A DNA stretch of 64,000 bases from Catellatospora sp. TT07R-123 (GTDB taxonomy: Bacteria > Actinomycetota > Actinomycetes > Mycobacteriales > Micromonosporaceae). The notes under the pieces are model-generated. The model saw nothing but the letters and a program-made list of their open reading frames with translations. It was not told the DNA's origin and did not search any database. Of the stretch, positions 2,386-60,915 are shown piece by piece. Numbering within the stretch: the stretch's first letter is position 1; each line of letters starts with the position of its first letter. A program made the translations under genes and the position numbers. The stretch covers positions 3,844,001 to 3,908,000 of the forward strand of contig NZ_BNEM01000002.1 of assembly GCF_018327705.1 (NCBI RefSeq), written 5' to 3'.

Positions 2386-2445
2386 GCAGTTTCGGGGAAG
2401 TTGCCGGAATCTTGGCTTGCGTTCGTGCACTTTCCCCGAAACTGC
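2386..2445. repeat. 60-bp palindromic repeat, copy 1
   Basis: First of four copies in the window. The right 19-base arm gcactttccccgaaactgc is identical to the other copies; the left arm has a local change (gggaagttgc for gggaaagtgc), so this is the most diverged copy. The 22-base centre keeps the ggaatcttggc word. The stretch 2244-2385, between the LysM start and this copy, shows nothing further that I recognise. Confidence 0.92.
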
Positions 2446-2520
2446 ACGATCGCTTCAGGCGGGTGGCTCTGTCGCGGATGGGCGCGATGACACCAGAGGG
2501 TGCCGTGAGCTGGTCCGGAG

Positions 2521-2549
2521 TTGCGGTCCTATTGCGACAAAGCTACATT
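2521..2549 (+). promoter_or_regulatory. possible sigma-70-type promoter for the small-protein pair
   Basis: TTGCGG (2521-2526), a 17-base spacer and TACATT (2544-2549) fit a housekeeping promoter. The word ctacattgatca around this -10 is repeated exactly in front of whiB1 near 9034-9045. A short palindrome gtcgacattgtcgac lies just downstream (about 2563-2577) and may be an operator. Confidence 0.4.
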
Positions 2550-2620
2550 GATCAGGTGACTACGTCGACATTGTCGACAACATGTCCTCGCCGTGGGGAC
2601 CCGATGCGAACGGAGAGATC

Positions 2621-2821
2621 GTGGCAATCACCGAGAGCGCGCCGTACCGGCTCCGGCTGGAGCTGCTGCCCGTGGGGCAGCTGCTCGACGTGACGTTCCG
2701 CAATGGCCTGGTCAAGCTGGGTCGGCTGGGCATCGCCAGCCGGCCGCTGAGCGAGCCGGGCGGCCCCGGCGAGGCCGACGCCCGGCTGGTGGTCCGGGGG
2801 CGGAAGGGGCCGCGACCATGA
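2621..2821 (+). CDS. hypothetical small protein, first gene of a two-gene unit
   Basis: A 66-residue product (VAITESAPYRLRLELLPVG...) that I do not recognise. It is rich in Arg and Leu, has no signal peptide or membrane segment and looks like a small soluble beta-rich protein. The GTG at 2621 is preceded by GGAGAG; an in-frame ATG at 2582 would add 13 residues but has no ribosome binding site. The stop overlaps the ATG of the next gene (ATGA), so the two are probably co-translated. Confidence 0.6.
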   Translation: MAITESAPYRLRLELLPVGQLLDVTFRNGLVKLGRLGIASRPLSEPGGPGEADARLVVRGRKGPRP

Positions 2822-2994
2822 GCGGGCGCTCGCCGTACCCCCGGGTCAGTCCGTGCGCGCACTGCGACCGCCCGGTGCTGCGCGACAACGACGACCGCTG
2901 GATCCACGCCGACCTGAGTTACGTGTGCCGGGACCGGTGGGGCGGCCTGACCGCCACCACCGCGGCCCCGGTGCAACCACGTCAGCGGCTGTGA
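2818..2994 (+). CDS. small CxxC protein, paralogue of 59869-60063
   Basis: A 58-residue protein beginning MSGRSPYPRVSPCAHC. A CAHC pair near residue 13-16, then WIHADLSYVC with a His and a third Cys, followed by RDRWGG, look like a small metal site, probably zinc. The product aligns closely with the 64-residue protein at 59869-60063: both have YPRVSPC, VLRDN, WIHA, LSY and CRD.WGG in the same order. Function unknown; the family name is not known to me. It overlaps the preceding gene by 4 bp and its 3' end overlaps the convergent oxidoreductase by 13 bp. Confidence 0.72.
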   Translation: MSGRSPYPRVSPCAHCDRPVLRDNDDRWIHADLSYVCRDRWGGLTATTAAPVQPRQRL

Positions 2995-3953
2995 TCGAGC
3001 ACGATCTTTCCGAACGCGTGCCCCGCCGCCAGCTCCTCGAACGCGGCACGCGCCTGCGAGAAGGCGTACACCCCGGCCACCACCGGGGTGATCTTCTTCG
3101 CCGCCATCAGGGCCAGCAGCGCGGCCAGCTCGTCGCGGGTGCCCATGGTGGACCCGACGATCTCCTGCTGGAGGAAGAACACCCGGCGCAGGTCCACGGT
3201 CGCCAGATGCCCCGACGTCGAACCTGACACCACGATCCGGCCGCCGGGCTTGGTGTTCTTGACCGAGTGGTCGAAGGTGGCCGCGCCGACCGTCTCGATC
3301 ACCACGTCCACGCGCTCGGGCAGGCGGTCACCGGTGGCCAGCGCGGTCGCGCCCAGGGCCTGCGCCTGCTCCCGCTTGGCCGCGTCGCGGCTGGTGGCGT
3401 ACACCCGCGCGCCGAGCGCCCGGCCCAGGACGATCGCCGCCGTGGCCACGCCGCCGCCCGCGCCCTGCACCAGCACGCTGTCGCCCTCGCGCAGCCGCCC
3501 CCGCGTGGTCAGCATCCGGTACGCCGTGAGCCACGCCGTCGGCACACACGCCGCGTCGGTCCAGCTCATACCCTCCGGCTTGGGCACCAGGTTGCGTCGC
3601 GGCACCGCGACCAGATCGGCCATCGTGCCCGGGTGCAGCTCCGACAGCAGGGTCCGCCGCGGGTCGAACGTCTCGTCGCCGCCGCCCGCCGCCGGATCGC
3701 CGATGACGGAGTGCACCACCACCTCGTTGCCGTCGGCGTCCACGCCCGCCGCGTCGTCGCCCAGGATCATCGGCAGCTTGTCCGCCGACAGCCCGACCCC
3801 CTTGAGCGACCAGAGGTCGTGGTGGTTCAGCGCGCTCGCGCGCACCTGGACGGTCGTCCACCCCTCCGGCACCTCGGGCTCCGGCCGCTCCCCCACGACC
3901 AGCCCCGCCAACGGATCATCCTCATTGATCGATTCCGCATAAACCGCACGCAT
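2982..3953 (-). CDS. zinc-free medium-chain dehydrogenase/reductase (quinone oxidoreductase-like)
   Basis: This 323-residue protein belongs to the MDR superfamily of NAD(P)H-dependent reductases. The N-terminal GroES-like half contains ALNHHDLWSLKGVG and GDDAAGV; the Rossmann half has GAGGGVATAAIVLGRALGA for nucleotide binding and ends with the usual AFEELAAGHAFGKIVL. The structural zinc Cys cluster and catalytic zinc ligands of alcohol dehydrogenases are absent, which fits quinone oxidoreductase or enoyl reductase subgroups. The ATG at 3953 gives the typical MRAVYAE start. Substrate cannot be inferred. It stands alone on the minus strand and converges with the small CxxC gene. Confidence 0.85.
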   Translation of the reverse strand: MRAVYAESINEDDPLAGLVVGERPEPEVPEGWTTVQVRASALNHHDLWSLKGVGLSADKLPMILGDDAAGVDADGNEVVVHSVIGDPAAGGGDETFDPRRTLLSELHPGTMADLVAVPRRNLVPKPEGMSWTDAACVPTAWLTAYRMLTTRGRLREGDSVLVQGAGGGVATAAIVLGRALGARVYATSRDAAKREQAQALGATALATGDRLPERVDVVIETVGAATFDHSVKNTKPGGRIVVSGSTSGHLATVDLRRVFFLQQEIVGSTMGTRDELAALLALMAAKKITPVVAGVYAFSQARAAFEELAAGHAFGKIVLDHSR

Positions 3954-4081
3954 ACCGCGACGCTAACAGCCCACCCGTGCCCGCCCGCCCCGCCCGCCAC
4001 CCGGGATCGGGCAAGCTGCCGGGCGATCGCGGGACATGCCGGCCAAGCCACGACCGAGCGCCCGCCGACCCACCCCGTTTC

Positions 4082-4152
4082 GTCATAGACGTTGGCCTAT
4101 CTCGTTGAGTTCGATCTTCGATCAGTCGATGTGATAGGCCAACGTCTATGAC
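4082..4152. repeat. 20-bp perfect inverted repeat with 31-base loop
   Basis: Arms gtcatagacgttggcctatc (4082-4101) and its exact complement (4133-4152) enclose a 31-base AT-richer loop. It lies in the 309-bp gene-free stretch 3954-4262, upstream of the oxidoreductase and downstream of the malic enzyme. It is too long and lacks a T-run for a standard terminator; an operator, a recombination site or a mobile-element remnant is possible. Apart from this and the adjoining tandem repeat the stretch shows nothing else that I recognise. Confidence 0.85.
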
Positions 4153-4163
4153 AAGTGGGCGCC

Positions 4164-4216
4164 GTGCGCCGGTAGGCGTTGACGTGCGCCGTTAGGCGTG
4201 CGCCGTCAGGCGTGAC
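4164..4216 (+). repeat. short degenerate tandem repeat
   Basis: Three head-to-tail copies of gtgcgccgktaggcgt-like units (4164-4183, 4184-4197, 4198-4216), the outer two followed by tgac. Lies directly beside the 20-bp inverted repeat. Confidence 0.7.
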
Positions 4217-4262
4217 GGGCGGGGTCTCGCGACGCGGGACGGGCGAGGTGGGCTGGGATGGG

Positions 4263-5447
4263 TCAGCGGGTGACGGCGTCGCGGTGGGCGGCGTCGGCTA
4301 CGGCCGCCGCCACGGCCGGGGCCACGCGCGGGTCCAGCGGGCTGGGCACGATCGCGTCGGGGCTCAGGTCGGCGGCGACCACGTCGGCGATGGCGATCGC
4401 CGCGGCCAGTTTCATCCCCTCGGTGATCCGGGTGGCGCGGGCCTCCAGCGCACCCCGGAAGATGCCCGGGAACGCGAGCACGTTGTTGATCTGGTTCGGA
4501 AAGTCGCTGCGCCCGGTCGCGACGATCGCGGCGTACCGCGCGGCGACCTCCGGGTGCACCTCGGGCGTCGGGTTGGCCAGCGCGAAGATCATGGCGCCCG
4601 GCGCCATCCCGGCGACCGCCTCCTCCGGGATCTGCCCGCCGGACACTCCGATCAGCACGTCGGCACCGGACAGCGCGGCGGCGATGTCGCCGCGCACCCC
4701 CTCAGCGTTCGTACGCTCGGCGAGCTCAGCTTTTGCCGAGCCCGCGACCAGGTCGGGCCGCCCCAGGTGGATCGCGCCGCGCGAGTCGCACACCACCAGC
4801 GCGGCCGGGTCGACCCCGCCCGCCATCAGCATCTTCGCCACCGCGACGCCTGCCGCGCCGGCGCCGGAGATGACCACGCGCAGGTCGCCGAGCTTGCGCT
4901 CGGTCAGCGTCGCGGCGTTGCGCAGGGCGGCGAACACCACCACGGCGGTGCCGTGCTGGTCGTCGTGGAACACGGGGATGTCCAGCGCCTCCACCAGCCG
5001 CCGCTCGATGTCGAAGCAGCGCGGCGCGGAGATGTCCTCCAGGTTGATGCCGCCGAAGCTCGGCGCGAGCGCCTTCACGATCGCCACGATCTCGTCGGGG
5101 TCCTGCGTGTCCAGGCAGACCGGCACCGCGTCGACCCCGCCGAACTGCTTGAACAGGACCGCCTTGCCCTCCATCACGGGCAGCGCGGCCTTGGGCCCGA
5201 TGTTGCCCAGGCCGAGTACGGCCGAACCGTCGGTGACGACCGCGACGGTGTGCCCCACCCAGGTGTAGTCGTACGCCAGCGACGGGTCCTGCGCGATCGC
5301 CTCACAGACGAGCGCGACACCCGGGGTGTACGCCAGGGACAGGTCTTCTCGAGTGGCCAGGGGCACGGTGCTGGCGACGACCATCTTGCCGCCTCGGTGC
5401 CGTTCGAACGCCGGATGCTCCACGGTGGACTCCCATAGTCTCAACAC
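4263..5447 (-). CDS. NAD(P)-dependent malic enzyme
   Basis: A 394-residue malic enzyme that decarboxylates malate to pyruvate with reduction of NAD(P), cytoplasmic. Visible motifs are LAYTPGVA with the catalytic Tyr, the VTDGSAVLGLGNIGP stretch, EGKAVLFKQFGGVDA with the catalytic Lys, the metal-binding HDDQHGTA segment, the Rossmann motif VISGAGAAGVAVAK and the conserved FALANPTPE. The length fits the short bacterial maeB/ytsJ type without the phosphotransacetylase-like fusion. It is transcribed alone, with a 133-bp gap to sodX on the same strand. Cofactor preference cannot be read from the sequence with certainty. Confidence 0.95.
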   Translation of the reverse strand: MLRLWESTVEHPAFERHRGGKMVVASTVPLATREDLSLAYTPGVALVCEAIAQDPSLAYDYTWVGHTVAVVTDGSAVLGLGNIGPKAALPVMEGKAVLFKQFGGVDAVPVCLDTQDPDEIVAIVKALAPSFGGINLEDISAPRCFDIERRLVEALDIPVFHDDQHGTAVVVFAALRNAATLTERKLGDLRVVISGAGAAGVAVAKMLMAGGVDPAALVVCDSRGAIHLGRPDLVAGSAKAELAERTNAEGVRGDIAAALSGADVLIGVSGGQIPEEAVAGMAPGAMIFALANPTPEVHPEVAARYAAIVATGRSDFPNQINNVLAFPGIFRGALEARATRITEGMKLAAAIAIADVVAADLSPDAIVPSPLDPRVAPAVAAAVADAAHRDAVTR

Positions 5448-5580
5448 ACGGGCCGGTCGAGATCAACGACGGGTCAGCGTTGACACGGCGCGGCGGAGTT
5501 CACGGGGTTCTCCCGAGGTCAGGAGTTTATTCCTGGTCGTATACATGATCAACGACCGGGGTGTCCGGTTGGCGGATTTT

Positions 5581-5898
5581 TCACACTCCCTTGCCCAGAC
5601 GCACCCGGGGACGGGGCCAGTAGCGCAGCACCACCCGGCCGACGACGTCGGCCACGCCGTACGCCCGGGAGTCGTCGGCGACCAGGTCGTTGTCGCCGCG
5701 AAGCCACCACCCGCCGTCGCGAGCCGACTCGGCCCGCTTGATTACCAGCAGGTCAGGCCGGGTACGGAAGCGTGCGATCACCACGTCGCCCGGCCGGACC
5801 GCCCGGCCGCCGCGACACACGAGCAGCATGTCGCCGTGCCGGAACGTGGGCACCATGGACGGTCCCCGCACGATGACGGGATACAGCGGCCAACGCAA
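5581..5898 (-). CDS. sodX: nickel superoxide dismutase maturation protease (S26 family)
   Basis: A 105-residue S26-type peptidase. The Ser of the Ser/Lys dyad is in RGPSMVPTFRHGD near residue 14, and the general-base Lys is in LLVIKRAES near residue 54; GDND and GRVV complete the fold. It is much shorter than ordinary signal peptidase I and has no clear transmembrane anchor. SodX proteins are encoded next to sodN and are thought to remove the N-terminal pro-sequence of Ni-SOD so that the new His1 can bind nickel. Here it is divergent from sodN with 78 bp between the starts, which strongly supports this role over a general signal peptidase. Confidence 0.9.
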   Translation of the reverse strand: MRWPLYPVIVRGPSMVPTFRHGDMLLVCRGGRAVRPGDVVIARFRTRPDLLVIKRAESARDGGWWLRGDNDLVADDSRAYGVADVVGRVVLRYWPRPRVRLGKGV

Positions 5899-5976
5899 TG
5901 TGTTCTCCTCACCGGTATAGGGTCGACCTGGGGATCATTGTCCCGTTCAGACCTACCGCATCTCATGGAGGACCTG

Positions 5977-6372
5977 ATGCAGTTCTTCAAGCCGCGCACG
6001 GTGGTCAGCGCGCACTGCGACCTGCCCTGCGGCGTGTACGACCCGGCGCAGGCCCGGATCGAGGCCGAGTCGATCAAGGCCATCTGCGAGAAGTACCAGG
6101 CCAACACCGACCCCGAGTTCCGTACCCGGGCGCTGGTGATCAAGGAGCAGCGGGCCGAGCTCGTCAAGCACCACCTGTGGGTGCTGTGGACCGACTACTT
6201 CAAGGCCCCGCACTTCGAGAAGTACCCGCAGCTGCACCAGCTGTTCAACGAGGCCACCAAGCTGGCCGGCGCGGGTGGCGCGAAGGGCCAGGCCGACCCG
6301 GCCGTGGCCGAGCAGCTGCTGGGCAAGATCGAGGAGATCTCCAAGATCTTCTGGGAGACCAAGCAGGCCTGA
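5977..6372 (+). CDS. sodN: nickel-containing superoxide dismutase
   Basis: Ni-SOD (131-residue precursor) converts superoxide to oxygen and hydrogen peroxide in the cytoplasm. Residues 13-18 HCDLPC followed by GVYDPAQARIEAES form the nickel hook: His1, Cys2 and Cys6 of the mature enzyme. The 12-residue leader MQFFKPRTVVSA must be cleaved before His1, the job assigned to sodX. The start at 5977 has GGAGG six bases upstream; an in-frame ATG at 5965 overlaps that site and is unlikely. The rest is the four-helix bundle with conserved LWVLWTDYFKAPHFEKYP. In Streptomyces sodN is nickel-induced through Nur; no Nur box was assigned here. Confidence 0.97.
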   Translation: MQFFKPRTVVSAHCDLPCGVYDPAQARIEAESIKAICEKYQANTDPEFRTRALVIKEQRAELVKHHLWVLWTDYFKAPHFEKYPQLHQLFNEATKLAGAGGAKGQADPAVAEQLLGKIEEISKIFWETKQA

Positions 6373-6383
6373 TCGCGGCCGAT

Positions 6384-6423
6384 CCTCCCGGTGTGCGGCC
6401 AGCGTGGGCGGCACACCGGGAGG
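6384..6423 (+). terminator. hairpin terminator after sodN
   Basis: Perfect 13-bp stem cctcccggtgtgc / gcacaccgggagg with a 14-base loop, starting 11 bases after the sodN stop. No T-run follows, as is common in actinobacteria. Confidence 0.7.
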
Positions 6424-6517
6424 CCGCGTACCGGCCGCGCGTGCGGGATTCAGCCCGCCGCAGAACGCGCGCAGGTGCCCGGCCATGAGCTAGGCTCCGC
6501 GCCGGGGGGTTGGCGAG

Positions 6518-6928
6518 GTGAGTCAGATTCTGCACAGTACGGCGGTGCCGCTCGCGGACAACGTCGTGGCGGTCACCGTGCCCGCTGACGGCGGCTGGCT
6601 CGGCATCCTGCGTACGGCCACGGCCGGGCTCGCGGCCCGACTGCGGTTCGCCGGCGACAAGATCGAAGATCTTCGCATCGCGGTCGACGAGGCCTGCGCG
6701 ATGCTGCTGGTCATCGCACCGTCCGGTGCCGACCTGCACTGCCGGTTCGAGATCGGCGAGGCGGAGCTGGGCGTGGTCGTCTCCGCCCCGGTCGACGGCC
6801 GCAAACGGCTGCCCGACGGCTCGGCCTTCGTCTGGAAGGTGCTCAACGGACTGACCTCGCGGGTCGAGGTCGAGCAGTCCGCCGATAGCGCCAGCATCCG
6901 ACTGGTCACCGAACTCCCCCACTCCTGA
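6518..6928 (+). CDS. RsbW-like anti-sigma regulatory factor (HATPase domain)
   Basis: A 136-residue GHKL ATPase-fold protein of the serine/threonine anti-sigma kinase type. The N-box region reads DLRIAVDEACAMLLV, with the conserved acidic VDEA instead of the usual NA-I; the C-terminal half has FVWKVLNGLTSRVEV. Such proteins bind sigma factors or phosphorylate anti-anti-sigma (STAS) partners in stress and development pathways. The start is a GTG at 6518 with GGCGAG upstream. No STAS partner or sigma gene is adjacent, so its target is unknown. Confidence 0.82.
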   Translation: MSQILHSTAVPLADNVVAVTVPADGGWLGILRTATAGLAARLRFAGDKIEDLRIAVDEACAMLLVIAPSGADLHCRFEIGEAELGVVVSAPVDGRKRLPDGSAFVWKVLNGLTSRVEVEQSADSASIRLVTELPHS

Positions 6929-6989
6929 CCCGCCACGGCCGGGCGGCGCGCTCACGCCCCGTGCTGCGGCAGCCCACGCCGCGCCCGCC

Positions 6990-7172
6990 GATGATCGCCG
7001 TTCTCGGCCACAAACTGTGGCTGGAACGCACCCCGTGACCTCAAACGGCGATCATCGCCAGAAGATCACGGGTTCCGGGCAGGAAGAACCTCGGGCGCCG
7101 CTGGCCATGGAGTCGATCAGGAAGTTGTGCACGCGACACGCCGTCGAACACGGCCATAAGTTCATGATCAAC
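6990..7172. repeat. dispersed repeat family 2, copy A
   Basis: The segment has two parts. The first (6990-7056) is bounded by a 13-bp inverted repeat gatgatcgccgtt / aacggcgatcatc with cacaaa-tg--gct-ga-cgca inside, which aligns with copy C near 48051-48090. The second, about 7133-7169, is the core cgtcgaacacggccataag followed by ttcatgatc, found also at 24161-24199 (reverse orientation) and 48131-48170. It fills most of the 377-bp gene-free stretch 6929-7305. Confidence 0.85.
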
Positions 7173-7212
7173 GGTGAGGGGCGGGGCGGCCCCGGCGACG
7201 GGGCGGGAGGGG

Positions 7213-7292
7213 CGGCGGCTACCGGCCGGGCGGGCTACCCGCCGGCCGAGCGGGCTACCCGCCGGGCGGGGCGGGCTACCGGCCGGGGCGGG
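7213..7292. repeat. GC-rich tandem repeat of about 20 bp
   Basis: Four imperfect head-to-tail units built on cgggctaccsgccgg (starting about 7216, 7231, 7251 and 7272). Lies just downstream of the membrane protein gene on the minus strand; could fold strongly. Confidence 0.65.
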
Positions 7293-7305
7293 AGGGTGGG
7301 TGGGG

Positions 7306-7701
7306 TTACCAGCCGAGGGTGCGGGTGGTGGCGGGGGCCAGGACGCAGGCGATGACGCCGCCGGAGACGGCCAGGACGGTCCAGCCGAGCAGGGGCTGAC
7401 CACCGGTGATCATGAAGTAGGCCGGGGCGAGCAGGAGCAGCTCCAGGGCCAGTACCGGGCCTCGGGCGCGGGGGCTCCGGCGCAGCAGGAGGCGGGCACC
7501 CACGCCGAGCCAGGCCGCGATCGCCACCGCGAACACCGTCACACCCGCCGCGATGCGCATGTCGGTCGCCTCGGCGGTCAGGTCCGCGTACAGGAGCACG
7601 CCCGCGACCACCGTCACCGCCAGGGCCTGCAGCACCAGCAGGGCCACCGCGCCCAGCAGGGACGCGGGAAGCCGGGTCGTGGTCGAGCCGGAGTCGGACA
7701 T
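7306..7701 (-). CDS. small integral membrane protein, function unknown
   Basis: The 131-residue product has four predicted membrane spans (about residues 15-40, 48-72, 82-101 and 103-123) separated by short loops, with an Arg-rich RRSPRARG loop between the second and third helix suggesting a cytoplasmic face. N terminus MSDSGSTTTRLP is polar and without a cleavable signal. I do not recognise the family. It stands alone. Confidence 0.68.
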   Translation of the reverse strand: MSDSGSTTTRLPASLLGAVALLVLQALAVTVVAGVLLYADLTAEATDMRIAAGVTVFAVAIAAWLGVGARLLLRRSPRARGPVLALELLLLAPAYFMITGGQPLLGWTVLAVSGGVIACVLAPATTRTLGW

Positions 7702-7792
7702 GGTTCCCCTTTCGCTCCCGAGACCCTAGCGCGCCATCCCCGCCCGCTCCCCCTCCGCCCAAGCACGCCCTACCGCCCCGCGGCGCCGTCGG

Positions 7793-7852
7793 GCAGTTTC
7801 GGGGAAAGTGCGGGAATCTTGGCCCGGACGGCCGCACTTTCCCCGAAACTGC
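7793..7852. repeat. 60-bp palindromic repeat, copy 2
   Basis: Arms gcagtttcggggaaagtgc and gcactttccccgaaactgc are perfect 19-bp complements; the 22-base centre begins gggaatcttggc. It lies in the 295-bp gap 7702-7996 upstream of the lipid kinase gene; the remaining bases there are plain GC-rich sequence. Confidence 0.95.
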
Positions 7853-7996
7853 ACCCGTGCACACCGTTCGAGGCGCAGGGAGCGCGCTGGGAGCGCGCCG
7901 GGCGGGCCGGGCGCGCGGGGCCGCGGCGCGAGCGGTGGGTCACGGAGTGCGGACCAGGGGTTAGGGCAGGTGGGCCGGACCGGTACATTGCCGGGC

Positions 7997-8941
7997 ATGC
8001 GAGGTCTGCTCGTCGTGAACCCGAAGGCCACCACCACCAGCGCGCGCACGCGGGACGTGCTCGCCGACGCGCTGCGCAGCCGGATGGACCTGACCATGGG
8101 CTACACCCGGCGCCGGGGGCACGGGTTCGACCTGGCCCGCGACGCCGCGACGGCGGGCATGGACGTGGTGGTCGCCCTGGGCGGGGACGGCACCGTCAAC
8201 GAGGTCGTGAACGGCCTGATGGCCGCGGAGCGCGGCGAACAGACCCCGGCCCTGGCCGTGGTGCCCGGCGGATCCACCAACGTGTTCGTGCGCGCGCTGG
8301 GCCTGCCGCGCACCCCGGTCGACGCGACGGCCGTGATCCTGCACGCGCTGCGCGAGGGCCGGCACCGCCGGGTCGGGCTGGGCCGGGCCGACGACCGCTA
8401 CTTCACCTTCTGCGCCGGGATCGGGCTGGACGCCGCCGTGGTGCGCCGGGTGGAGCAGGCCCGCCGCAAGGGCCGCCGCTCGACGCCGGGGTTGTATCTG
8501 CGCTCGACGCTGGGCCAGTACTTCTTCGATCCGGGCCGCCGCCGGCCGGGGCTGACGCTGGCCGAGCCGGGCGAGGAGAGCGAGGCCGGGCTCGCGAACG
8601 TGATCGTGCAGAACACCGCGCCGTGGACGTATCTGGGCGAGCGCCCGATCCACGCCAGCGCCCGCGCGTCGTTCGACACGGGGCTCGATGTACTGGCGCT
8701 GCGGGGCCTCCACCTGCCCAGCACCCTTCATACGGTCACCCAGATGCTGTCCCGTCAGCCGGACGATCCCGCCGAACGATCAGACATGGACGGCGACAAG
8801 GTGATGATCCGGCACGACCTGGCGGAATTCGAGGTCCGTTGCGACACGCCGCAGGCGTTCCAGCTCGACGGCGATTATCTCGGTGAGCGCGAAAAGGTGA
8901 AATTCACCTCGGTGCCCGGGGCCCTGCGCGTAATCTGCTAA
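7997..8941 (+). CDS. diacylglycerol/lipid kinase family protein
   Basis: A 314-residue cytoplasmic or peripheral kinase of the DAGK catalytic family, which phosphorylates diacylglycerol, sphingosine or related lipids. The N-terminal domain has LLVVNPKATTTS and the nucleotide-binding signature ALGGDGTVNEVVNGL, followed by PGGSTNVFVRALGLP; the C-terminal beta domain includes TFCAGIGLDAAVVRRVE, NTAPWTYLGERP and FQLDGDYLGE. The ATG at 7997 places MRGLLVVNPKA at the N terminus as in relatives. It stands upstream of whiB1 in many actinobacteria, as it does here. Lipid substrate is not determinable. Confidence 0.93.
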   Translation: MRGLLVVNPKATTTSARTRDVLADALRSRMDLTMGYTRRRGHGFDLARDAATAGMDVVVALGGDGTVNEVVNGLMAAERGEQTPALAVVPGGSTNVFVRALGLPRTPVDATAVILHALREGRHRRVGLGRADDRYFTFCAGIGLDAAVVRRVEQARRKGRRSTPGLYLRSTLGQYFFDPGRRRPGLTLAEPGEESEAGLANVIVQNTAPWTYLGERPIHASARASFDTGLDVLALRGLHLPSTLHTVTQMLSRQPDDPAERSDMDGDKVMIRHDLAEFEVRCDTPQAFQLDGDYLGEREKVKFTSVPGALRVIC

Positions 8942-9011
8942 GAAGCGCCGCGACACGGGGATCCGCCGCGCATCTGTGTCGATGGGCACACGTGACACAC
9001 ACTGGAAACAC

Positions 9012-9040
9012 TGGCGACGCCTAACCGGCGGTACTACATT
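9012..9040 (+). promoter_or_regulatory. possible promoter upstream of whiB1
   Basis: TGGCGA, 17 bases, TACATT, with the word ctacattgatca identical to the one at 2543-2554. The -35 is weak. It lies in the 411-bp gene-free region 8942-9352, which also holds a TTGACA element and no other structure that I can name. Confidence 0.3.
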
Positions 9041-9143
9041 GATCACTGACTGTCGCTAGTCGGGGTCTGGGGTCACGCCCGGTGATCTGGACAAATCGGT
9101 CGTGAGCTTGCTCACCCGTCTGTCCTAATTTCGAGCACCCCCC

Positions 9144-9172
9144 TTGACATCGCGGGAGTTCGTGAAAGCATT
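9144..9172 (+). promoter_or_regulatory. possible promoter upstream of whiB1 with consensus -35
   Basis: TTGACA at 9144-9149 is a perfect -35 hexamer; 17 bases later AGCATT is only a poor -10. The long leader (about 170 bases) to the start codon fits the long untranslated regions reported for whiB genes. Confidence 0.35.
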
Positions 9173-9352
9173 CACAAGCGTACCGAGCGCTGAATCTGTT
9201 GCCCGTATACGCGCCGCCGGTTTCGGTAGCGGTCAGTGATGACTGGATCGCATCCAAATCGCCTCACGCGCGTTCGCATACAGAGAAGCCCGCAACGTAC
9301 CAACAAGCCTCAGCATGTCCCACTGCCATCACCAGCAAGGAGTGTTTCCGCC

Positions 9353-9607
9353 ATGGACTGGCGCCACCATTCAGTCTGCCGTGACGAAGACCCGGAGCTG
9401 TTCTTCCCGATCGGGACGTCTGGCCCCGCTCTTCTTCAGGTCGAGCAGGCCAAGGCGGTGTGCCGTCGTTGCCCCGTCGTCGACGAGTGCCTGAAGTGGG
9501 CGCTGGAGACGGGCCAGGACGCCGGCGTCTGGGGCGGGATGAGCGAAGAGGAGCGGCGCGCTGTCAAGCGCCGTGGCGGCCTTCGGGTCCGCGCACACTC
9601 TCTCTGA
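9353..9607 (+). CDS. whiB1: WhiB1/WblE-type iron-sulfur transcription factor
   Basis: An 84-residue WhiB protein, the same length as mycobacterial WhiB1 and near identical in pattern. It starts MDWRHHSVCRDEDPELFFP. The four cluster ligands are C9, C37, C40 and C46, and the GVWGG turn is at 58-62, followed by a basic tail RRAVKRRGG for DNA contact. WhiB1 holds an oxygen-tolerant, NO-sensitive 4Fe-4S cluster and contacts region 4 of the primary sigma factor. The ATG at 9353 was chosen by this alignment. A stem-loop with a T-run follows. Confidence 0.97.
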   Translation: MDWRHHSVCRDEDPELFFPIGTSGPALLQVEQAKAVCRRCPVVDECLKWALETGQDAGVWGGMSEEERRAVKRRGGLRVRAHSL

Positions 9608-9651
9608 GCAACAACCCGCAACACCGCTCGCACCACCGCCACAAAACGTAG

Positions 9652-9685
9652 AAAGCCCCGATGAGCATTGTTGCTCCGGGGCTTT
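9652..9685 (+). terminator. rho-independent terminator after whiB1
   Basis: Stem aaagccccg / cggggcttt with a 16-base loop, followed by tacgt; the last stem bases supply the T-run. One of the few classical terminators in the window. Confidence 0.85.
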
Positions 9686-9755
9686 TACGTTGCCCGGCCA
9701 ACTCACGCACGGTATCGGGAGAGTGGCACTGAGCGCAAATCGTTGGAAACGGCCC

Positions 9756-11211: not shown

Positions 11212-11405
11212 GGCGTCTCCCTCCCCAGCAGGCCCAACATCTTCAGCGCGAACACCCGTCGGCAGGCCCGGCACTCCCACTGCCCGTGCGTCGAGGGCGC
11301 GGGCTCGTCGTCGTCTGTCTCCGGGCCCGCGTGCGGCCGCAGGAACTGCTCCTCGCCGCAGAACGGGCAGTAGTACGGCACCGCGCGTTGAGCACCCTCG
11401 CTCAT
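11208..11405 (-). CDS. small zinc-ribbon protein of the sulfur assimilation operon
   Basis: A 65-residue protein starting MSEGAQRAVPYYCPFCGEE and containing a second pair WECRACRRVF, so CxxC...CxxC as in a zinc ribbon or rubredoxin-like knuckle. It overlaps the sulfite reductase stop by ATGA and the cysH start by GTGA, so the three are translated together. Similar small proteins occur between the same two genes in other actinobacteria, but their job is unknown to me; an electron-transfer, cluster-delivery or regulatory role are all conceivable. ATG at 11405 is the only start with a sensible N terminus. Confidence 0.82.
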   Translation of the reverse strand: MSEGAQRAVPYYCPFCGEEQFLRPHAGPETDDDEPAPSTHGQWECRACRRVFALKMLGLLGRETP

Positions 11406-13108: not shown

Positions 13109-13208
13109 CGCAGCGTCCTCCTGTGATCGGCTAGAGCGAGGACGCGCCCTGCGCGCCGCTCCGCGGATCACGCGGATTCAAGCATGTGGATGCTTCGGCG
13201 CGGGGGTC

Positions 13209-13245
13209 GCGCCCGGTTTCAAGAAAGAGAAAACGGACCGGGCGC
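13209..13245 (-). promoter_or_regulatory. hairpin after the leader peptide, possible attenuator
   Basis: On the minus strand a 9-bp stem gcgcccggt / accgggcgc with a 19-base loop begins at the base after the leader stop codon. A ribosome held near the end of the leader would prevent it from forming. A shorter aagcat / atgctt stem lies further downstream. Confidence 0.5.
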
Positions 13246-41992: not shown

Positions 41993-42042
41993 GTAGCTCA
42001 CACGTGTGGGGTTGTAGCTACAACCCCACACGTGTGAGCTAC
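41993..42042. repeat. perfect 50-bp palindrome
   Basis: From gtagctcacacgtgtggggt at the left end to its exact complement at the right end; the centre is ttgtagctacaa, so there is no loop. It begins 12 bases after the xylB stop. A DNA cruciform, operator or transcription end are possible; no T-run follows. Confidence 0.95.
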
Positions 42043-49402: not shown

Positions 49403-49458
49403 ATCACTCGCAGCAGGTGACCGTGCCCGCCTCCACCGGGCGACCCACCCGCCGCGTA

Positions 49459-52474: not shown

Positions 52475-52538
52475 GCGAGCGCACCGAGCGAATCCTGCGG
52501 CACAGCGCATGAGCAGGCGCACCGAGGGCGGGGAGGCG

Positions 52539-53585: not shown

Positions 53586-53630
53586 AATCAGGGCTTTACG
53601 CGATGGCAATGGCGGGGTTAAATCGGAGGC

Positions 53631-53658
53631 ACATCAATGGGAGCGCTTCCATTGATGT
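53631..53658. promoter_or_regulatory. extended LacI/CebR-type operator in front of GH9
   Basis: A 28-bp palindrome with one mismatch: arms acatcaatgg / ccattgatgt around GAGCGCTT. Its centre TGGGAGCGCTTCCA (53638-53651) is close to the Streptomyces CebR box TGGGAGCGCTCCCA. Confidence 0.75.
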
Positions 53659-53703
53659 GTACACATCAGAACGCTCGCCCTGACACCCACCGCACGGCCG
53701 TGA

Positions 53704-56670
<2,967 letters not shown>

Positions 56671-56677
56671 CACAGTA

Positions 56678-56725
56678 AAGAAGGGCACCTTCTCATCGCT
56701 TTGCGATGGAGAGGGTGCCCTTCTT
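56678..56725. terminator. bidirectional hairpin terminator with aagggcacc core
   Basis: A long stem, 12 bp aagaagggcacc / ggtgcccttctt plus an inner stem of nine pairs with one bulge, between GH9 and the convergent regulator. It shares the core of the terminator at 42942-42985. Confidence 0.85.
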
Positions 56726-57711
56726 CATTCCTGGGGCGGTTGCTGGTCGAGCCAGCCGCGGCGGGCCGACTCGACGCCCGCCTGGAAGCGGCTCGCGGCG
56801 CCCAGCCGCTCGGTCAGGCCCGTCATCATGCGCTGCACGCTGCGCACCGACACGGCGAGCTTGCGCGCCGCCGACTCGTCGGTATGCCCGTCGGCCAGCA
56901 GCCGGATCAGCGCGAGCTCGTTCGGGCTCAGGTCGTGCTCGTCACGCGGCATGGCCTGCCCGAACGGCGTGCCGGTCGTCCAGAGGTGCTCGAACAGCGC
57001 CACCAACCCCGCCACCACGCCGGGCTGGCGCAGTTCCAGCGCACCGGCCCGCGTACGGTGCGGGTCGATCGGCACGAGCGCCACCTCCCGATCGATGATC
57101 ACCAGCCGCATCGGCAGCGTCGGCACGGTCCGGCTCTGGGAGCCCATCGACATCATCCAGCGGGCGTGCGCGAGCGTCCCCGGATCGTTGCGGACGCTGT
57201 CCAGGTACAGGTTGCGGATCCGCACACCCCGTTCCAGGGCGATCTGGTTGAGCGGCTTCTCCGCGTCGATGTCATCCGGCCGCTGCGCGCCTCCGGTGCT
57301 GAACGAGAGGCACTCGAAGCGCGTCAGCTCCTGCAGTTCGACCAGGCGCTCGCGCACCGCCTCGATGCCCTCCAGCCGCCGCCCCTCGTCCTGGCGTTCG
57401 GCCTCGGCGTGCACGGCGGCGATGCTGTTGATCGCGGCACGGGTGGCCTCGATCTCCCGCTGCCGCGCCACGACGTCGGCCTCCGCCTTGGCCAGCAGCG
57501 CCAGCAGCCCGGCCTGCGGCCGCACCGGCCGCAGCGCCTCTCCGGTCACGCGCAGCAGGGCCAGGTCGGCCAGGGTGGTCAAGGCGGCCCGCACGACGTC
57601 GGCCTCGATCGACAACCGCTGGGCGATCTCCGCGACGCCGAGCCCAGGCTGATCGAGCATGCAGCGGTAGACGCGTTCGTCCGTATCGGACAGACCGAGT
57701 GCACCCAGCAT
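56725..57711 (-). CDS. LuxR-type helix-turn-helix regulator with TrmB-like N terminus
   Basis: A 328-residue regulator. The N-terminal winged helix (LSDTDERVYRCMLDQPGLG, then VAEIAQRLSIEADVVRAALT) resembles TrmB; the middle contains a helical segment and a small sensor-like domain (RLVIIDREVALVPIDP); the C-terminal LuxR helix-turn-helix is LSPNELALIRLLADGHTD followed by KLAVSVRSVQRMMTGLTERL. Many actinobacterial examples exist without known ligands. ATG 57711. Target genes unknown. The 287-bp gap 57712-57998 upstream of it shows nothing that I recognise. Confidence 0.87.
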   Translation of the reverse strand: MLGALGLSDTDERVYRCMLDQPGLGVAEIAQRLSIEADVVRAALTTLADLALLRVTGEALRPVRPQAGLLALLAKAEADVVARQREIEATRAAINSIAAVHAEAERQDEGRRLEGIEAVRERLVELQELTRFECLSFSTGGAQRPDDIDAEKPLNQIALERGVRIRNLYLDSVRNDPGTLAHARWMMSMGSQSRTVPTLPMRLVIIDREVALVPIDPHRTRAGALELRQPGVVAGLVALFEHLWTTGTPFGQAMPRDEHDLSPNELALIRLLADGHTDESAARKLAVSVRSVQRMMTGLTERLGAASRFQAGVESARRGWLDQQPPQE

Positions 57712-57998
57712 CGATTCCTCCCCCTGCGGTCGCGTGATCCATTATGCCGCCGGACGCGAACGCGCCACGCCGCGGCGATTCCGGGTGGCACGAACCCGCC
57801 GGGCGGGTTCGCGCCAGGCCGCAGGTGCTGACTTCAGCCCGGCAGCCCGGCATGCTCGATACACAGGCGAGCTCACGCCACAGATCCCCGACAACGCCCA
57901 GCGAGGCAGAAGGCGCAAATACATCGTCATGTATCGATTAATTGAGATCGCGTACGCGGCCGCCGACTCCCGGACCCGGACCGGCTCGGGAGGCTCCG

Positions 57999-58295
57999 AT
58001 GCTGCTGGCGATCATCCGGATCGCACCGCTGGCCGGGCCGGCCGGCGTCGACCCGCAGGCCGTGCACGACCTGGTGTGGCGGCATCGCGCGGCGGCCGAC
58101 CGGCTCGAACTGCTGCACGTCAGAGGCAACGCCACCGGCCTGCACCTGGCGGGCTTCCTGCTCGCCCCGAGCGCCGCCGCCGCGTACGACAGCCTGCGGC
58201 GCCTGGTCGAGCGGTCGCTGACGGCCGCCCCTGAGCTGAGGCTCTGGCGCGTCGTCTACCCCTATACGCGGGCCGGACCCGCGGATCGGTCGTGA
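57999..58295 (+). CDS. hypothetical protein
   Basis: A 98-residue soluble protein starting MLLAIIRIAPLAGPAG. It is rich in Ala, Leu and Arg, with two helices (RHRAAADRLELLHVRG, AAAYDSLRRLVERSL) and short strands. I do not recognise it. ATG at 57999 preceded by GGGAGG at six bases, the best ribosome site of the area. It ends inside an inverted repeat and lies convergent to the XRE regulator. Confidence 0.65.
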   Translation: MLLAIIRIAPLAGPAGVDPQAVHDLVWRHRAAADRLELLHVRGNATGLHLAGFLLAPSAAAAYDSLRRLVERSLTAAPELRLWRVVYPYTRAGPADRS

Positions 58296-58338
58296 ACCGG
58301 TGCACCGCAAGTCAAACGGGGGTGGTGCACCGGTTCAC
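58292..58338. repeat. 15-bp inverted repeat overlapping the end of the hypothetical gene
   Basis: gtgaaccggtgcacc (58292-58306) and its complement (58324-58338) with a 17-base loop; includes the stop codon of the small gene. Perhaps its terminator. Confidence 0.75.
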
Positions 58339-58363
58339 CCGTCACGTTCCGGCCCGGAAACAC

Positions 58364-58398
58364 CGCACGGGGGTGCGGCTGAGCCGTGCCCCCGTGCG
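58364..58398 (-). terminator. hairpin terminator of the XRE regulator
   Basis: cgcacgggggtgcggct / agccgtgcccccgtgcg with two non-Watson-Crick positions and a one-base loop centre, eight bases after the regulator stop. Confidence 0.6.
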
Positions 58399-58405
58399 CC
58401 TGCGG

Positions 58406-59632
58406 CTAGGCCGCCTCGGCCAGTGCGGTCAGGTCCGCGGCGAGCATGCCGCGACCCAGCCGGTCCGCTTCCGTGACCATCAACCGGAGATCGGCGGCGA
58501 CCCGCCGCGAACGGACCCCGACGGCGTCCGAGATCGCCCGGTGCGCCTGCTCCGCCGCGATGTCGAACTCCCCCGCCCGCAGATGCAGAACCGCGAGCCG
58601 GGTCCGGCAGCGCAACCCTGTCCGGGTGCGCCCGGAACCGAGCCCGGCCAGCGCCCGGCTCAACCGCTCCCTGGCTCGGACGTCGTCTCCCAGCTCGAAC
58701 AGGGCCAGGCCGAGGGCGCTGTCGTGGTGCCCCGGCGACAGGGTGATGCGGTGCGCCCAGTCGGGCTTGTCAGCGGTATCGGTGCCGAGGGCCGCCTCCT
58801 CCGACAGTGCCACGTGCCGCAGCCCGGCGTCGCGCATCCCCGCCGATCCACAGTGACGGGCGCAGACCGCGTGCAGGTTGGCGCGCTCGGCCGGGCTGAC
58901 CCGCTCGTCGCCCAGCGCCATCCGCAGCACGTCCACTCCGTCGGCGGGGCGGCCGGTGTCGGCCAGCAGTGTGGACAGGTCGAGCATGACGTGCGCGCGC
59001 AGGTCCCGGTCGGCGCCCCGCGCCGCCTCGTCGAGCGCGAACGTGAGCACGCGCGCGGCGGCGTCGGTCTCGCCGATGTCATACAGCGACCAGCCGAAGC
59101 GGTCGGCCAGCAGCCCGACTCCTGACGAGAGGCGGGTCCGCGTCGCCTCGGCCATGGGCTGTCCGAGCAGGCCGACCGCCCAGTCGAGGGTGCCCCGCGC
59201 GAGCGCGGCTGCGGCAGAACCGCCGTGCGCCAGGTCCAGCCGCATGTAGAGGTCGGCGGCCGCCTCCACCGCGGCGGCCTCCGCAGCGCCTACCGAGGCG
59301 GGCAGGCGGGTCGTGACCCCGTCGAGCAGTTGCAGCAGCGGTTGCGCCGACGCGGCTCCCACGGACGCGGCGGCGACCGCGCCGAGCAGGTCGCGCCTTC
59401 TCATGTCGTCCAGGTTAGGCACGGGAGCCGTTGCGGCGACAGGGTCGACCGTTGCAGCAACGCTGATGCCGAGCGCTCGACCGTAGTCACGGACCAGCGC
59501 GGCGTTGACCGGATAGAGGCCCCGCTCGACCCGGCTCAGGTAGCTCTTGCTGCGGCCGATCCGTCGCGCGAACGTGCCGAGGGTGAGCTGACGCGCTTCC
59601 CGGGCGTTGCGCAGATCCATTCCAGTGATCAT
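58406..59632 (-). CDS. XRE-family helix-turn-helix regulator with TPR-like C-terminal domain
   Basis: A 408-residue regulator. The N-terminal HTH reads ARQLTLGTFARRIGRSKSYL followed by SRVERGLYPVN; the middle has a twin RR segment MRRRDLLGAVAAASVGAASA that looks like a membrane or Tat-like element but is internal. The C-terminal 250 residues are helical repeats (DVLRMALGDERVSPAERANL, LGLALFELGDDVRARERLSR). Such proteins occur widely in Streptomyces and relatives, mostly with unknown roles. ATG at 59632 with GGAGGGC upstream; a second ATG at 59620 is possible. Confidence 0.84.
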   Translation of the reverse strand: MITGMDLRNAREARQLTLGTFARRIGRSKSYLSRVERGLYPVNAALVRDYGRALGISVAATVDPVAATAPVPNLDDMRRRDLLGAVAAASVGAASAQPLLQLLDGVTTRLPASVGAAEAAAVEAAADLYMRLDLAHGGSAAAALARGTLDWAVGLLGQPMAEATRTRLSSGVGLLADRFGWSLYDIGETDAAARVLTFALDEAARGADRDLRAHVMLDLSTLLADTGRPADGVDVLRMALGDERVSPAERANLHAVCARHCGSAGMRDAGLRHVALSEEAALGTDTADKPDWAHRITLSPGHHDSALGLALFELGDDVRARERLSRALAGLGSGRTRTGLRCRTRLAVLHLRAGEFDIAAEQAHRAISDAVGVRSRRVAADLRLMVTEADRLGRGMLAADLTALAEAA

Positions 59633-59868
59633 GGTGGCGCCCTCCGCTGTTGGCGCAACGGTGGTTGGGTCAACGTACAACGGCGACCGGCGGCGCGATC
59701 GCGGGTGATGCTTCTTCCGGCTTTCCGACCAGGCCGAGTGCCGTGATTTCGTACACATTAGACGAACATCCCGTCCTGCCGCCTGCCTGTCGGATCGCCC
59801 GCCGGAGCGGGCCCATGGCCTCGCAACCACCCGCTCCGGCGCACGGCCGTCACAGACAGGAGCTCGGG

Positions 59869-60063
59869 ATGACGTCGTCGACCTACCCCCGCGTCTCACC
59901 CTGCCGGCACTGCCGCGTGCCGGTGCTGCGCGACAACAGTGGGACGTGGATCCACGCCAGCCTCTCCTACACCTGCCGCGACCCCTGGGGCGGCGTCACG
60001 GACACCACCGCCACACCAGCCACCCCACCAACCCTCGACCACCGCCACCGCACGGACACGTGA
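59869..60063 (+). CDS. small CxxC protein, paralogue of 2818-2994
   Basis: A 64-residue protein, MTSSTYPRVSPCRHCRVP at the N terminus, with CRHC, WIHASLSYTC and RDPWGGV as in the protein at 2818-2994. The C-terminal tail is rich in Thr and Pro (TPATPPTLDHRH). ATG 59869 has an ACAGGAG site. It stands alone on the plus strand. A 60-bp repeat starts 16 bases after its stop. Likely zinc-binding; function unknown. Confidence 0.75.
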   Translation: MTSSTYPRVSPCRHCRVPVLRDNSGTWIHASLSYTCRDPWGGVTDTTATPATPPTLDHRHRTDT

Positions 60064-60079
60064 CACGTGAGGCCATGCT

Positions 60080-60139
60080 GCAGTTTCGGGGAAAGTGCTG
60101 GAATCTTGGCCGGGATTCGTGCACTTTCCCCGAAACTGC
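60080..60139. repeat. 60-bp palindromic repeat, copy 3
   Basis: Perfect 19-bp arms gcagtttcggggaaagtgc and complement, centre tggaatcttggccgggattc followed by gt. It lies between the small CxxC gene and the phosphatase gene. Confidence 0.95.
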
Positions 60140-60164
60140 GGCATGACGCTGAAGGGAGATCGCG

Positions 60165-60818
60165 ATGACAGCGTGGTTGATCAGGCACGCGGAGAGCGTG
60201 GCCAACTCGGGCGGGGCGACGGACCATCCGGTGACGATCCCCCTCACCGAACGGGGCAGGGCGCAGGCAGACCACCTCGCCGCGGCGCTCCCCGGGCCGC
60301 CCGCCCTCATCGTCACCTCGGGCTACCTGAGGACGAAACAGACCGCGGCCCCCACCCGCGACCGGTTCCCCGACGTCGCACATGAGGAATGGCCGGTGCA
60401 GGAGTTCAGCTACCTGGCGAGCCTGCACGGCCGACCGACGACGGCGGCGCAGCGCCGACCGATGGTGGACGAGTACTGGCGCCGGGCCGACCCCCACCAG
60501 GTCGACGGCCCTGACGCGGAATCCTTCGCCGACCTGCTCGACCGGGCCCGGTCCCTCCTCGGACGGCTGCACCGGCGTCCGGACGCACCGGTCGCCGTGT
60601 TCACCCACGGCGTCTTCATGCGCGCGGTGCTGTGGGCCCACCTCACCGAACCGGCCGAGCCCACCCCGGCGCAGATGCGCCGGTTCCGGGCCTTCTCACT
60701 GGCGTTCACCGTGCCCAACACGGCCGTCGTCAACCTCCGCCTGGACGGCGACGGCGGCGGCACCTTCCGCCTCGGCGAGGTCCCCCACCTCCCCGCCACC
60801 CTCATCACGGGCGACTGA
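60165..60818 (+). CDS. histidine phosphatase family protein
   Basis: A 217-residue enzyme of the phosphoglycerate-mutase-like superfamily. The phosphohistidine loop is LIRHAESVANSGG with the RHA(E) motif; ERGRAQADHL, SGYLRTKQTA and VFTHGVFMRAVL (second His) complete the site. Substrate unknown. GAAGGGAGA precedes the ATG at 60165. The gene is bracketed by repeat copies 3 and 4. Confidence 0.9.
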   Translation: MTAWLIRHAESVANSGGATDHPVTIPLTERGRAQADHLAAALPGPPALIVTSGYLRTKQTAAPTRDRFPDVAHEEWPVQEFSYLASLHGRPTTAAQRRPMVDEYWRRADPHQVDGPDAESFADLLDRARSLLGRLHRRPDAPVAVFTHGVFMRAVLWAHLTEPAEPTPAQMRRFRAFSLAFTVPNTAVVNLRLDGDGGGTFRLGEVPHLPATLITGD

Positions 60819-60855
60819 CCCACCTCCTCTCCGCCCGCACCCCCTCAAGATCGGT

Positions 60856-60915
60856 GCAGTTTCGGGGAAAGTGCTGGAATCTTGGCCGGAATTCGTGCAC
60901 TTTCCCCGAAACTGC
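60856..60915. repeat. 60-bp palindromic repeat, copy 4
   Basis: Arms identical to copy 3; the centre differs at one position (ggaattc for gggattc). 37 bases after the phosphatase stop. The matching can be extended one or two bases each side (gtgcag...ctgcac). Confidence 0.95.

Follow-up and report, generated by a model that had tools for sequence, protein, structure and literature searches.

F1, a REPIN-like family of 60-bp inverted palindromic doublets in Catellatospora

Related repeat systems

Among very small repeats, REPINs are the standard example of dependence on a single domesticated transposase. They are inverted doublets with conserved ends, separated by a spacer constrained in its length and in its hairpin formation, according to the portion of the primary account on which we draw (PMC3116915). 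The 60-bp element family described here, which we term F1, matches what that portion states for Pseudomonas fluorescens SBW25 in several respects: two inverted and highly conserved ends overlapping REP palindromes; a less conserved spacer under constraint in both length and hairpin formation, with compensatory changes; and an extragenic location, with REP doublets numbering in the hundreds in SBW25 (PMC3116915). It differs from the SBW25 elements, as far as they are covered there, in that no RAYT or other Y1 gene was found in the genomes richest in F1 and no GTAG tag was seen, and in having one single spacing with few singlets in the host genome, hereafter G000 (9/231 units unpaired, six of them from three IS-split copies), and more in its congener G005 (5/17 lone units beside doublets).

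Two further systems bear comparison. The CGTC-tagged REPs likewise form dimers without a dedicated transposase; the relevant part of their description places them in Proteobacteria, Chlorobi, Bacteroidetes, Spirochaetes and Thermotogae, does not mention Actinobacteria, and describes them as short-looped with a CGTC tag that is unpaired, whereas the edges of F1 read CGT...ACG and bear no tag of this kind (PMC3733652). Repeated intergenic stem-loops, as presented in the section cited, are like F1 concentrated at the 3' ends of coding sequences, chiefly in convergent gaps, and some constitute repeat families; the exact doublet geometry, the polar loop and the exchange of families at sister-species sites have no match in that section (PMC1590033).

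F1 copies in the window

The window, i.e. the whole 64,000-nucleotide stretch of Catellatospora sp. TT07R-123 analysed here, contains four F1 copies (Table 1), and the original prediction of repeats of exactly 60 bp in one orientation at these positions was confirmed. Its 19-base arms are borne out by an arm search with up to three mismatches, which returned eight matches in the window against a chance mean of 0.01; the left arm of copy 1 carries two mismatches. Four matches to GGAATCTTGGC (at most one mismatch) occur in the window, with a chance mean of 0.46. All four copies fold far better than shuffled sequence (z -5.3 to -10.1), and Rfam gave no match in the window at the gathering score. 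The centre motif, predicted to be always kept, is indeed retained among the four copies but varies genome-wide. The shared orientation similarly holds for these four but is not a rule of the genome: among the 94 elements, out of 112, whose polarity is clear, the two directions stand at 33:14 on this contig (C2; p 0.008) and 25:22 on the other (C1), and a strand rule was accordingly rejected as not general.

Table 1. Positions of the F1 copies in the window.
Feature	Positions	Strand	Parts
F1 copy 1	2386..2445	+	arms 2386-2404, 2427-2445; 22-nt centre 2405-2426
F1 copy 2	7793..7852	+	arms 7793-7811, 7834-7852
F1 copy 3	60080..60139	+	arms 60080-60098, 60121-60139
F1 copy 4	60856..60915	+	arms 60856-60874, 60897-60915

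Genes were called with a simple codon model of our own, and by these calls copies 1-3 are classed as divergent and copy 4 lies in a convergent gap. The class of copy 1 depends on a weak 66-aa ORF that has no Pfam match. Copy 2 is flanked by a 131-aa ORF on the minus strand and a DAGK_cat gene on the plus strand, the start of which is uncertain, as its first residue is already the beginning of the Pfam match. A stretch of 25 bp separates the end of copy 3 from the downstream ATG of the His_Phos_1 gene (60165-60818), and copy 4 lies between that plus-strand gene and a GH48 gene on the minus strand.

Partners in the same gap were sought in the congeners G009 and G005 at up to six mismatches over both arms, or up to nine in a relaxed set; the search covered arms without insertions or deletions and would miss strongly decayed partners. 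Copy 1 has partners in both genomes at the relaxed threshold only, the one in G009 with six mismatches in one arm and none in the other. Copy 2 has a G009 partner with one and two mismatches in its arms, and a G005 partner at the relaxed threshold only. The DNA of copy 3 has no counterpart at that site in the compared stretches of either genome. The partner of copy 4 lies at C1:548493 of G009, and none was seen in the sequence inspected there in G005.

Copy number and distribution

The host genome encodes 406 arm units at up to one mismatch, corresponding to about 200 F1 elements, and includes 129 exact doublets; a 31-mer search gave 94+91 matches, some of which represent both strands of one element. 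These units are remarkably uniform: among 231 found at up to two mismatches, 204 have none, 24 have one and three have two. The unit is present in all 11 genus genomes searched (31-551 matches each), with wide differences in copy number between sister species. Taken with gain and loss at matching sister-species sites, these counts uphold the prediction of a dispersed REP/BIME-type family. The predicted intergenic bias is equally clear, only 6 of 112 examined copies lying within called genes.

Beyond the genus, the exact doublet was recovered in 1 of 394 class genomes, the host itself, and a diverged form occurs chiefly in one other genus. A covariance-model survey reached E 1e-4 or better in 148 of 354 genomes, with at most 15 candidates scored per genome; it indicates range rather than copy number, and some of its matches may be unrelated hairpins. 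Plasmid and phage collections and viral contigs gave no F1 match, and one scan of a genome contig collection returned a single record, Catellatospora sp. KI3. In the part of the host genome assumed to be far from dnaA, 1 of 75 copies was found against 18 expected, together with three further exact doublets without the full box (see below). Old copies inherited with core genes are a better fit to this scarcity than active spread.

Architecture of the F1 element

The 19-bp arms are palindromes in their own right (GCASTTTC-SSS-GAAASTGC), with S positions varying between G and C. In counts that did not presuppose any spacing, neighbouring units less than 150 bp apart across 830 kb of G000 were spaced by 41 bp in 110/110 cases at up to two mismatches and in 111/112 at up to three; the same spacing holds in continuous stretches (24/24 in G000, 31/31 in G009) and in 6/6 cases in G005. 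Three loci of genus g4 (L075, L077 and L090) keep the 41-bp register with a different inner stem. In almost all G000 elements the left arm has GGG at its centre and the right arm CCC (columns with 111-112 of 112); a few copies in other genomes deviate.

Counted across related copies, compensated double changes in the stem number six in 160 elements, against a shuffled mean of 0.7, and none of 2000 shuffles reached six. At the inner S pair 16:45 the two bases frequently do not pair (G-G in 42 and C-C in 24 of the 160), and 41 of 81 changed non-S stem pairs are broken. The ATCTTGG box occupies only one side of the loop. As the set of 112 elements had been picked mostly by a box-containing 31-mer, a second test of this polarity used 58 unselected elements: at 8/9 letters the box is present in one half in 43, in both in none and in neither in 15 (Fisher 3.7e-6); at 7/9 letters four have it in both halves (Fisher 8e-4); and at 9/9 letters the respective counts are 30, 0 and 28 (Fisher 0.011). 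Polarity shows no association with transcription (27:18, and 11:9 in the unselected set).

The flanks are GC-rich (0.75), and no palindromic extension into them stood out; by inspection, the ends tend toward CGT...ACG. Decay of F1 exists, in the form of the lone G005 units and of a G000 copy at C1:4457189, one arm of which is by inspection short of one base. Given the inverted doublet, the compensated stem changes and the one-sided loop box, F1 is an inverted, polar REP doublet and hence REPIN-like.

Conservation and turnover between sister species

In 20 same-gap pairs from G000 and G009, differences affect 37/680 non-S arm sites, 151/440 loop sites and 422/700 flank sites, with 14154/70900 four-fold sites differing across 290 genes of the two genomes. 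Between species, then, the arms are conserved and the loop and flanks are not, and it is the arm sequence that is conserved, beyond pairing alone. These same-gap pairs need not all be single insertions: their loop identity is 14.5 of 22, only a slight excess over the 12.9 obtained by random pairing (p 0.0014).

Turnover is evident at sites where one species has F1 and another lacks it, and no clean empty/filled junction was seen among the sister-species sites compared. A different palindrome (score at least 14) is present, as a raw count, at 8/15 partner sites. The occupant of one gap changes with the species: F1, F4, F5 or none of the listed families.

Mobility and gene context

We regard F1 as probably a non-autonomous REPIN-like family, mobilised in trans by an enzyme other than a RAYT, whose copies survive best at gene ends. 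The reading draws on the copy number, fixed geometry, conserved arms, one-sided box, excess of compensated changes, convergent bias, turnover, and the lack of a detected Y1 transposase in the richest genomes. A single strand of the element, with its two inverted 19-bp palindromic units starting 41 bp apart, can form a 19-bp stem that is followed by an internal mismatch, then by a short GAATC/GATTC stem and finally by a polar loop exposing one ATCTTGG box. Under the proposed mechanism, the enzyme supplied in trans would copy this folded strand into gaps, and copies would persist preferentially at the ends of genes, since long hairpins may be harmless or useful there. A family with REPIN anatomy, fixed spacing, about 200 copies and no RAYT found raises the question of what else copies genomic hairpins, and the 11 sister genomes let its birth, loss and replacement be traced site by site.

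A less probable, still tentative alternative is that F1 serves mainly to terminate transcription or as a hairpin at mRNA ends, in many cases in both directions, and is selected at gene 3' ends, with hairpin families being interchangeable. Such a role, also raised in the original prediction, would account for the clear convergent-gap bias: the 105 classed copies comprise 41 convergent, 45 tandem and 19 divergent cases, as against 88, 237 and 122 in 447 reference gaps of at least 60 bp, and the preference recurs in unselected stretches of G000 (Fisher 0.0015) and G009 (Fisher 0.0021). In tandem gaps F1 lies at a median of 45 bp from the upstream stop and 121 bp from the downstream start. Other strong palindromes are also frequent in convergent gaps (25/57 in G000, 28/65 in G009) and rare in divergent ones (3/77 and 2/89; 0 in shuffled controls), and both the species-dependent occupancy of one gap by F1, F4, F5 or none and the conservation of the arms at same-gap sites also speak for it.

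Against this stand the 19 divergent copies, the independence of polarity from transcription, the retention of arm sequence rather than pairing alone, and the GC-rich flanks, with 0/112 copies having at least five T in the eight bases past the stem on either strand. The discriminating test was mutual exclusion with other hairpins, which was not supported: the apparent deficit in convergent gaps (9/25 with F1 against 60/70) disappears once the windows are matched for length (9 observed, mean 5.7). Another hairpin is present in 9/25 convergent F1 gaps, and a second one in 11/76 hairpin gaps without F1. Tandem gaps show no clear difference either (5/21 with F1 against a mean of 5.7; 1 against 3.6 at the strictest score). 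A separate terminator consensus scan, limited to loops of 3-8, is blind to hairpins whose centre measures 22 nt and was left unused. A terminator role for F1 is possible.

The mobilising enzyme and insertion traces

The proposal of a RAYT/Y1-type helper found no backing: PF01797, the Y1/RAYT-type transposase, has no match in G000, G005 and G009, the three genomes richest in F1, nor in G002 and G007. Nine Y1 loci exist in other members of the genus, and none carries the F1 unit. Two of the six Y1-bearing genomes, G004 and G008, were classified, and their Y1 genes are of the IS200/IS605 type, that of G008 having an additional REP_Tyr_transpos match far below the cut-off. By eye, each of these two genes adjoins an ORF resembling tnpB. 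As for the suggested target duplications, none stood out in 146 pairs of fast-evolving flanks, the best of 1008 combinations reaching three against 0.23 expected. Counting against REPIN-like mobility are the failure to find a mobilising enzyme, a target duplication or a clean empty/filled junction; the frequently unpaired 16:45, the 41/81 broken pairs, the scarcity far from dnaA and the decay also count against a REPIN-like reading.

These results bear on a further alternative, a conventional REP/RAYT family in which the clade has lost the RAYT while copies persist without it. The REPIN-like anatomy is compatible with such a history, and E. coli genomes lacking a RAYT still hold REPINs according to the part of the study cited (PMC8049555); nevertheless, we consider it improbable in view of the missing PF01797 matches in the richest genomes, the absence of the unit from all nine genus Y1 loci, and the lack of a conserved GTAG or CGTC tag by inspection of flanks with ends tending to CGT...ACG. 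In particular, no GTAG-type unpaired tag was seen in the flanks of 112 elements by inspection and column counts.

Equally improbable is a paired DNA-binding site, in which the 8-3-8 palindrome would be a dimer operator and 41 bp, about four helical turns, would put two dimers of a nucleoid protein, gyrase or regulator on one face: the internally palindromic arms, the G/C variation at S positions, as symmetric base contacts would allow, and the 41-bp register, kept even at the g4 loci with another inner stem, favour it, but the GGG-left/CCC-right centres in G000 are needless for a symmetric operator pair, the excess compensated changes and one-sided box point to a folded single strand, and copy number varies widely between sister species.

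Other hairpin families and IS30-type elements

Other hairpin families can take the same sites as F1 in sister species. One may speculate, at rather long odds, that a non-RAYT system in Micromonosporaceae mobilises single-stranded hairpins and spreads unrelated families of near-constant length (F1, F2, F4 and others). Gene 3' ends would then act as interchangeable sockets in which, from one sister species to the next, one family takes the place of another, and IS30-type elements would have specialised in the loops of individual families.

Specific insertion of insertion sequences into palindromic repeats, with REPs as their targets, is documented in the portion of the work cited (PMC1525189). 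Compared with these, the two IS30-type elements seen here were each encountered only within the loop of a different hairpin family, in 3/3 copies each, and their ends differ from those of F1.

Architecture and distribution of the F1 repeat

The 60-bp repeat, F1, comprises two inverted 19-bp palindromic arms (units), together a doublet, around a 22-nt centre: it has the anatomy of a REPIN minus the RAYT, the Y1-type transposase that normally copies REPINs. We consider it probably a non-autonomous hairpin repeat that is copied by a putative enzyme. In searches of open-licence PMC papers we recognised none describing the family. The four 60-bp copies that the original prediction placed in the window were recovered as described, except that the left arm of copy 1 carries two changes.

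The window corresponds to C2:3844001-3908000 of the host genome (G000; 9.17 Mb in two contigs, C1 and C2). In 830 kb of that genome there are 231 units with at most two mismatches: 204 are perfect, 24 have a single mismatch and three have two. Counted without assuming any distance, the spacing between neighbours less than 150 bp apart is 41 in all 110 cases; with units of up to three mismatches it is 41 in 111 of 112, the remaining one being 19. The same 41-bp spacing holds in continuous stretches of G000 (24/24) and of two congeners, G009 (31/31) and G005 (6/6), which contain zero, three and five lone units, respectively. Nine G000 units have no partner at 41 bp: six are halves of three copies cut by one and the same insertion sequence, and for another (C1:4457189) the partner arm is, by eye, one base short. 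The arm centres read GGG on the left and CCC on the right, in 111-112 of the 112 G000 elements per column.

F1 is, as predicted, a dispersed family. The unit has 406 matches in G000 (at most one mismatch) and occurs in all 11 genus genomes, with 31 to 551 matches each; exact doublets in G000 number 129. A 31-mer arm-plus-box pattern gives 94 forward and 91 reverse matches in G000 (at most three mismatches), part of which are both strands of one element. Family-wide, 77 of 354 genomes contain the unit, which is sparse outside the genus (0 to 8 matches per genome); the reversed control gave one match in each of three genomes. Among 394 class genomes only G000 has the exact doublet. When the collection of named genomes was scanned with a near-complete pattern, Catellatospora sp. 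KI3 (Micromonosporaceae) was the sole match. A relative that has diverged and has a different inner stem (TGCCTC...GAGGCA) occurs in other parts of the family, mainly in genus g4, and is alignable with F1 over the same 60 columns, two of its rows having a one-base shift; a covariance model with both forms as input matches in 148 of 354 family genomes.

Genomic placement

The 112 G000 elements lie in convergent (41), tandem (45) and divergent (19) gaps, with one at an edge and only six within a called gene, which bears out the anticipated intergenic bias; the 447 reference gaps of at least 60 bp are 88 convergent, 237 tandem and 122 divergent. In unselected stretches of G000 and G009, F1 occupies 11/57 and 14/65 convergent, 6/167 and 15/179 tandem, and 7/77 and 5/89 divergent gaps (convergent versus rest, Fisher 0.0015 and 0.0021). 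Other strong palindromes are near-absent from divergent gaps (3/77 and 2/89), an avoidance that F1 does not share, and a T-tract follows the stem on either strand in none of the 112 copies. Set beside this placement, a terminator or mRNA-end function as the main cause of F1 persistence is a tentative alternative, and one compatible with the hairpin-repeat reading.

With dnaA at C1:4.57 Mb, and assuming that C2 leads away from it starting at its high end, the region presumed most distant from dnaA contains one of 75 31-mer matches (at most one mismatch) versus 18 expected; three exact doublets whose box is incomplete are located in this region as well.

Mobility and associated insertion sequences

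PF01797 (Y1_Tnp) is present in six of the 11 genus genomes and has no match in G000, G002, G005, G007 or G009; none of the nine Y1 loci of the genus carries an F1 unit. The proposed RAYT/Y1 helper was not found in G000 or in the two other genomes richest in copies, G005 and G009. The Y1 genes examined (G004, G008) are IS200/IS605 transposases, the adjoining ORF looking like tnpB by eye. Of the suggested target duplications, none was prominent among 146 flank pairs. That F1 is an ordinary RAYT family whose RAYT has since been lost, which its REPIN-like anatomy brings to mind, appears unlikely beside these searches.

A genome search found three full copies of an IS30-family element (NF033563, ~1.18 kb), all inside F1 loops. 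With this element as query, another IS30-like one was recovered that shares 70% identity with it over 0.74 kb; this second element occupies three places, each between the two arms of a palindrome of another family, F4.

Coordinates of insertions, palindromes and F1-less gaps
Feature	Genome	Position	Remark
IS30-family element in F1 loop	G000	C1:2362546, C1:3823989, C2:1357496	loci L143, L161, L112
Second IS30-like element in F4	G000	C2:3726399, C1:2398462, C1:1750943	
Palindrome in F1-less gap	G009	C1:323290, 495243, 531510, 569851, 586278, 626484, 641263, 677967	score at least 14
Short or empty F1-less gap	G009	C1:368880, 470507, 509048	
Short or empty F1-less gap	G000	C2:4037344	
F2 copy	G000	C2:3684616	also other places
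F4 member	G000	window 4082-4152	

Stem, loop and constraint

Across 17 non-S stem pairs (S, G or C) of 160 elements from three genomes there are six compensated double changes versus a shuffled mean of 0.7, with at least six in 0 of 2000 shuffles; the other changes are 33 single ones to G-T, 41 pair-breaking and one non-pairing double change. The S pair 16:45 is frequently unpaired. The loop box GAATCTTGG, at 8/9 letters, is on one half of 43 of 58 unselected elements, on both halves of none and absent from 15 (Fisher 3.7e-6); at 7/9 letters it is on both halves in four. Such a one-sided box is what a single-strand reading of the loop would need, and it is improbable that F1 is instead a double-stranded protein-binding site.

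G000 C2:3646000-4128000 and G009 C1:284001-820000 are mostly collinear at ~91% identity, with 24 and 34 F1 elements, respectively, in the collinear stretches. In 20 same-gap pairs, differences affect 37/680 non-S (5.4%) and 26/80 S positions of the arms, 151/440 loop positions (80/180 in the loop core) and 422/700 flank positions (ungapped comparison); in 290 aligned genes, four-fold sites differ at 20.0% and codon positions 1+2 at 4.5%. By these arm and loop rates relative to gene sites, the arms evolve like protein-changing positions and the loops faster than silent ones. Should some same-gap pairs stem from separate insertions, recent copying would account for part of this contrast.

Turnover of hairpin families

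In a flank search seven of 58 elements had no collinear partner site; direct comparison later put G000 3664042 and 3904856 beside G009 302872 and 548493. At 15 sites F1 is present in G000 or G009 alone: in eight the other species' gap holds a strong palindrome, and in seven it has none so strong, some gaps being short or empty. One gap across the 11 species is occupied by F1 in G000, G009 and G005, by F4 in G007, G006, G001 and G004, by a further family, F5, in G003, by an unclassified palindrome in G010 and by none in G008 and G002. Exact pattern matches of F2 (GTTGCCGGGCAATCGGG, ~55 bp) number 63 in G000, 25 in G005, seven in G009 and zero in the eight other genus genomes; those of F4 (CATAGACGTTGGCCTATC) number 48 in G000, zero in G005 and 68 in G006. 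Because of this site turnover and these copy differences, hairpin change is a general trait of the genus, F1 being the largest palindrome family in the compared stretch.

The right border, versus G009, of a ~4.2-kb segment (window 56667-60855) lies at F1 copy 4. This segment houses the histidine-phosphatase gene and copy 3, and nothing equivalent to it occupies that site in the compared G009 and G005 stretches. Window 41993-42042 is a 50-bp palindrome whose perfect arms adjoin directly (GTAGCTCACACGTGTGGGGTTGTAG...), in a gap where G009 and G005 have F1. Some F2 copies, like some F1 copies, are flanked by CAAGATC/GATCTTG, and inspection of G009 C1:290735 suggests an F5-type palindrome with an F1 element nested in its loop.
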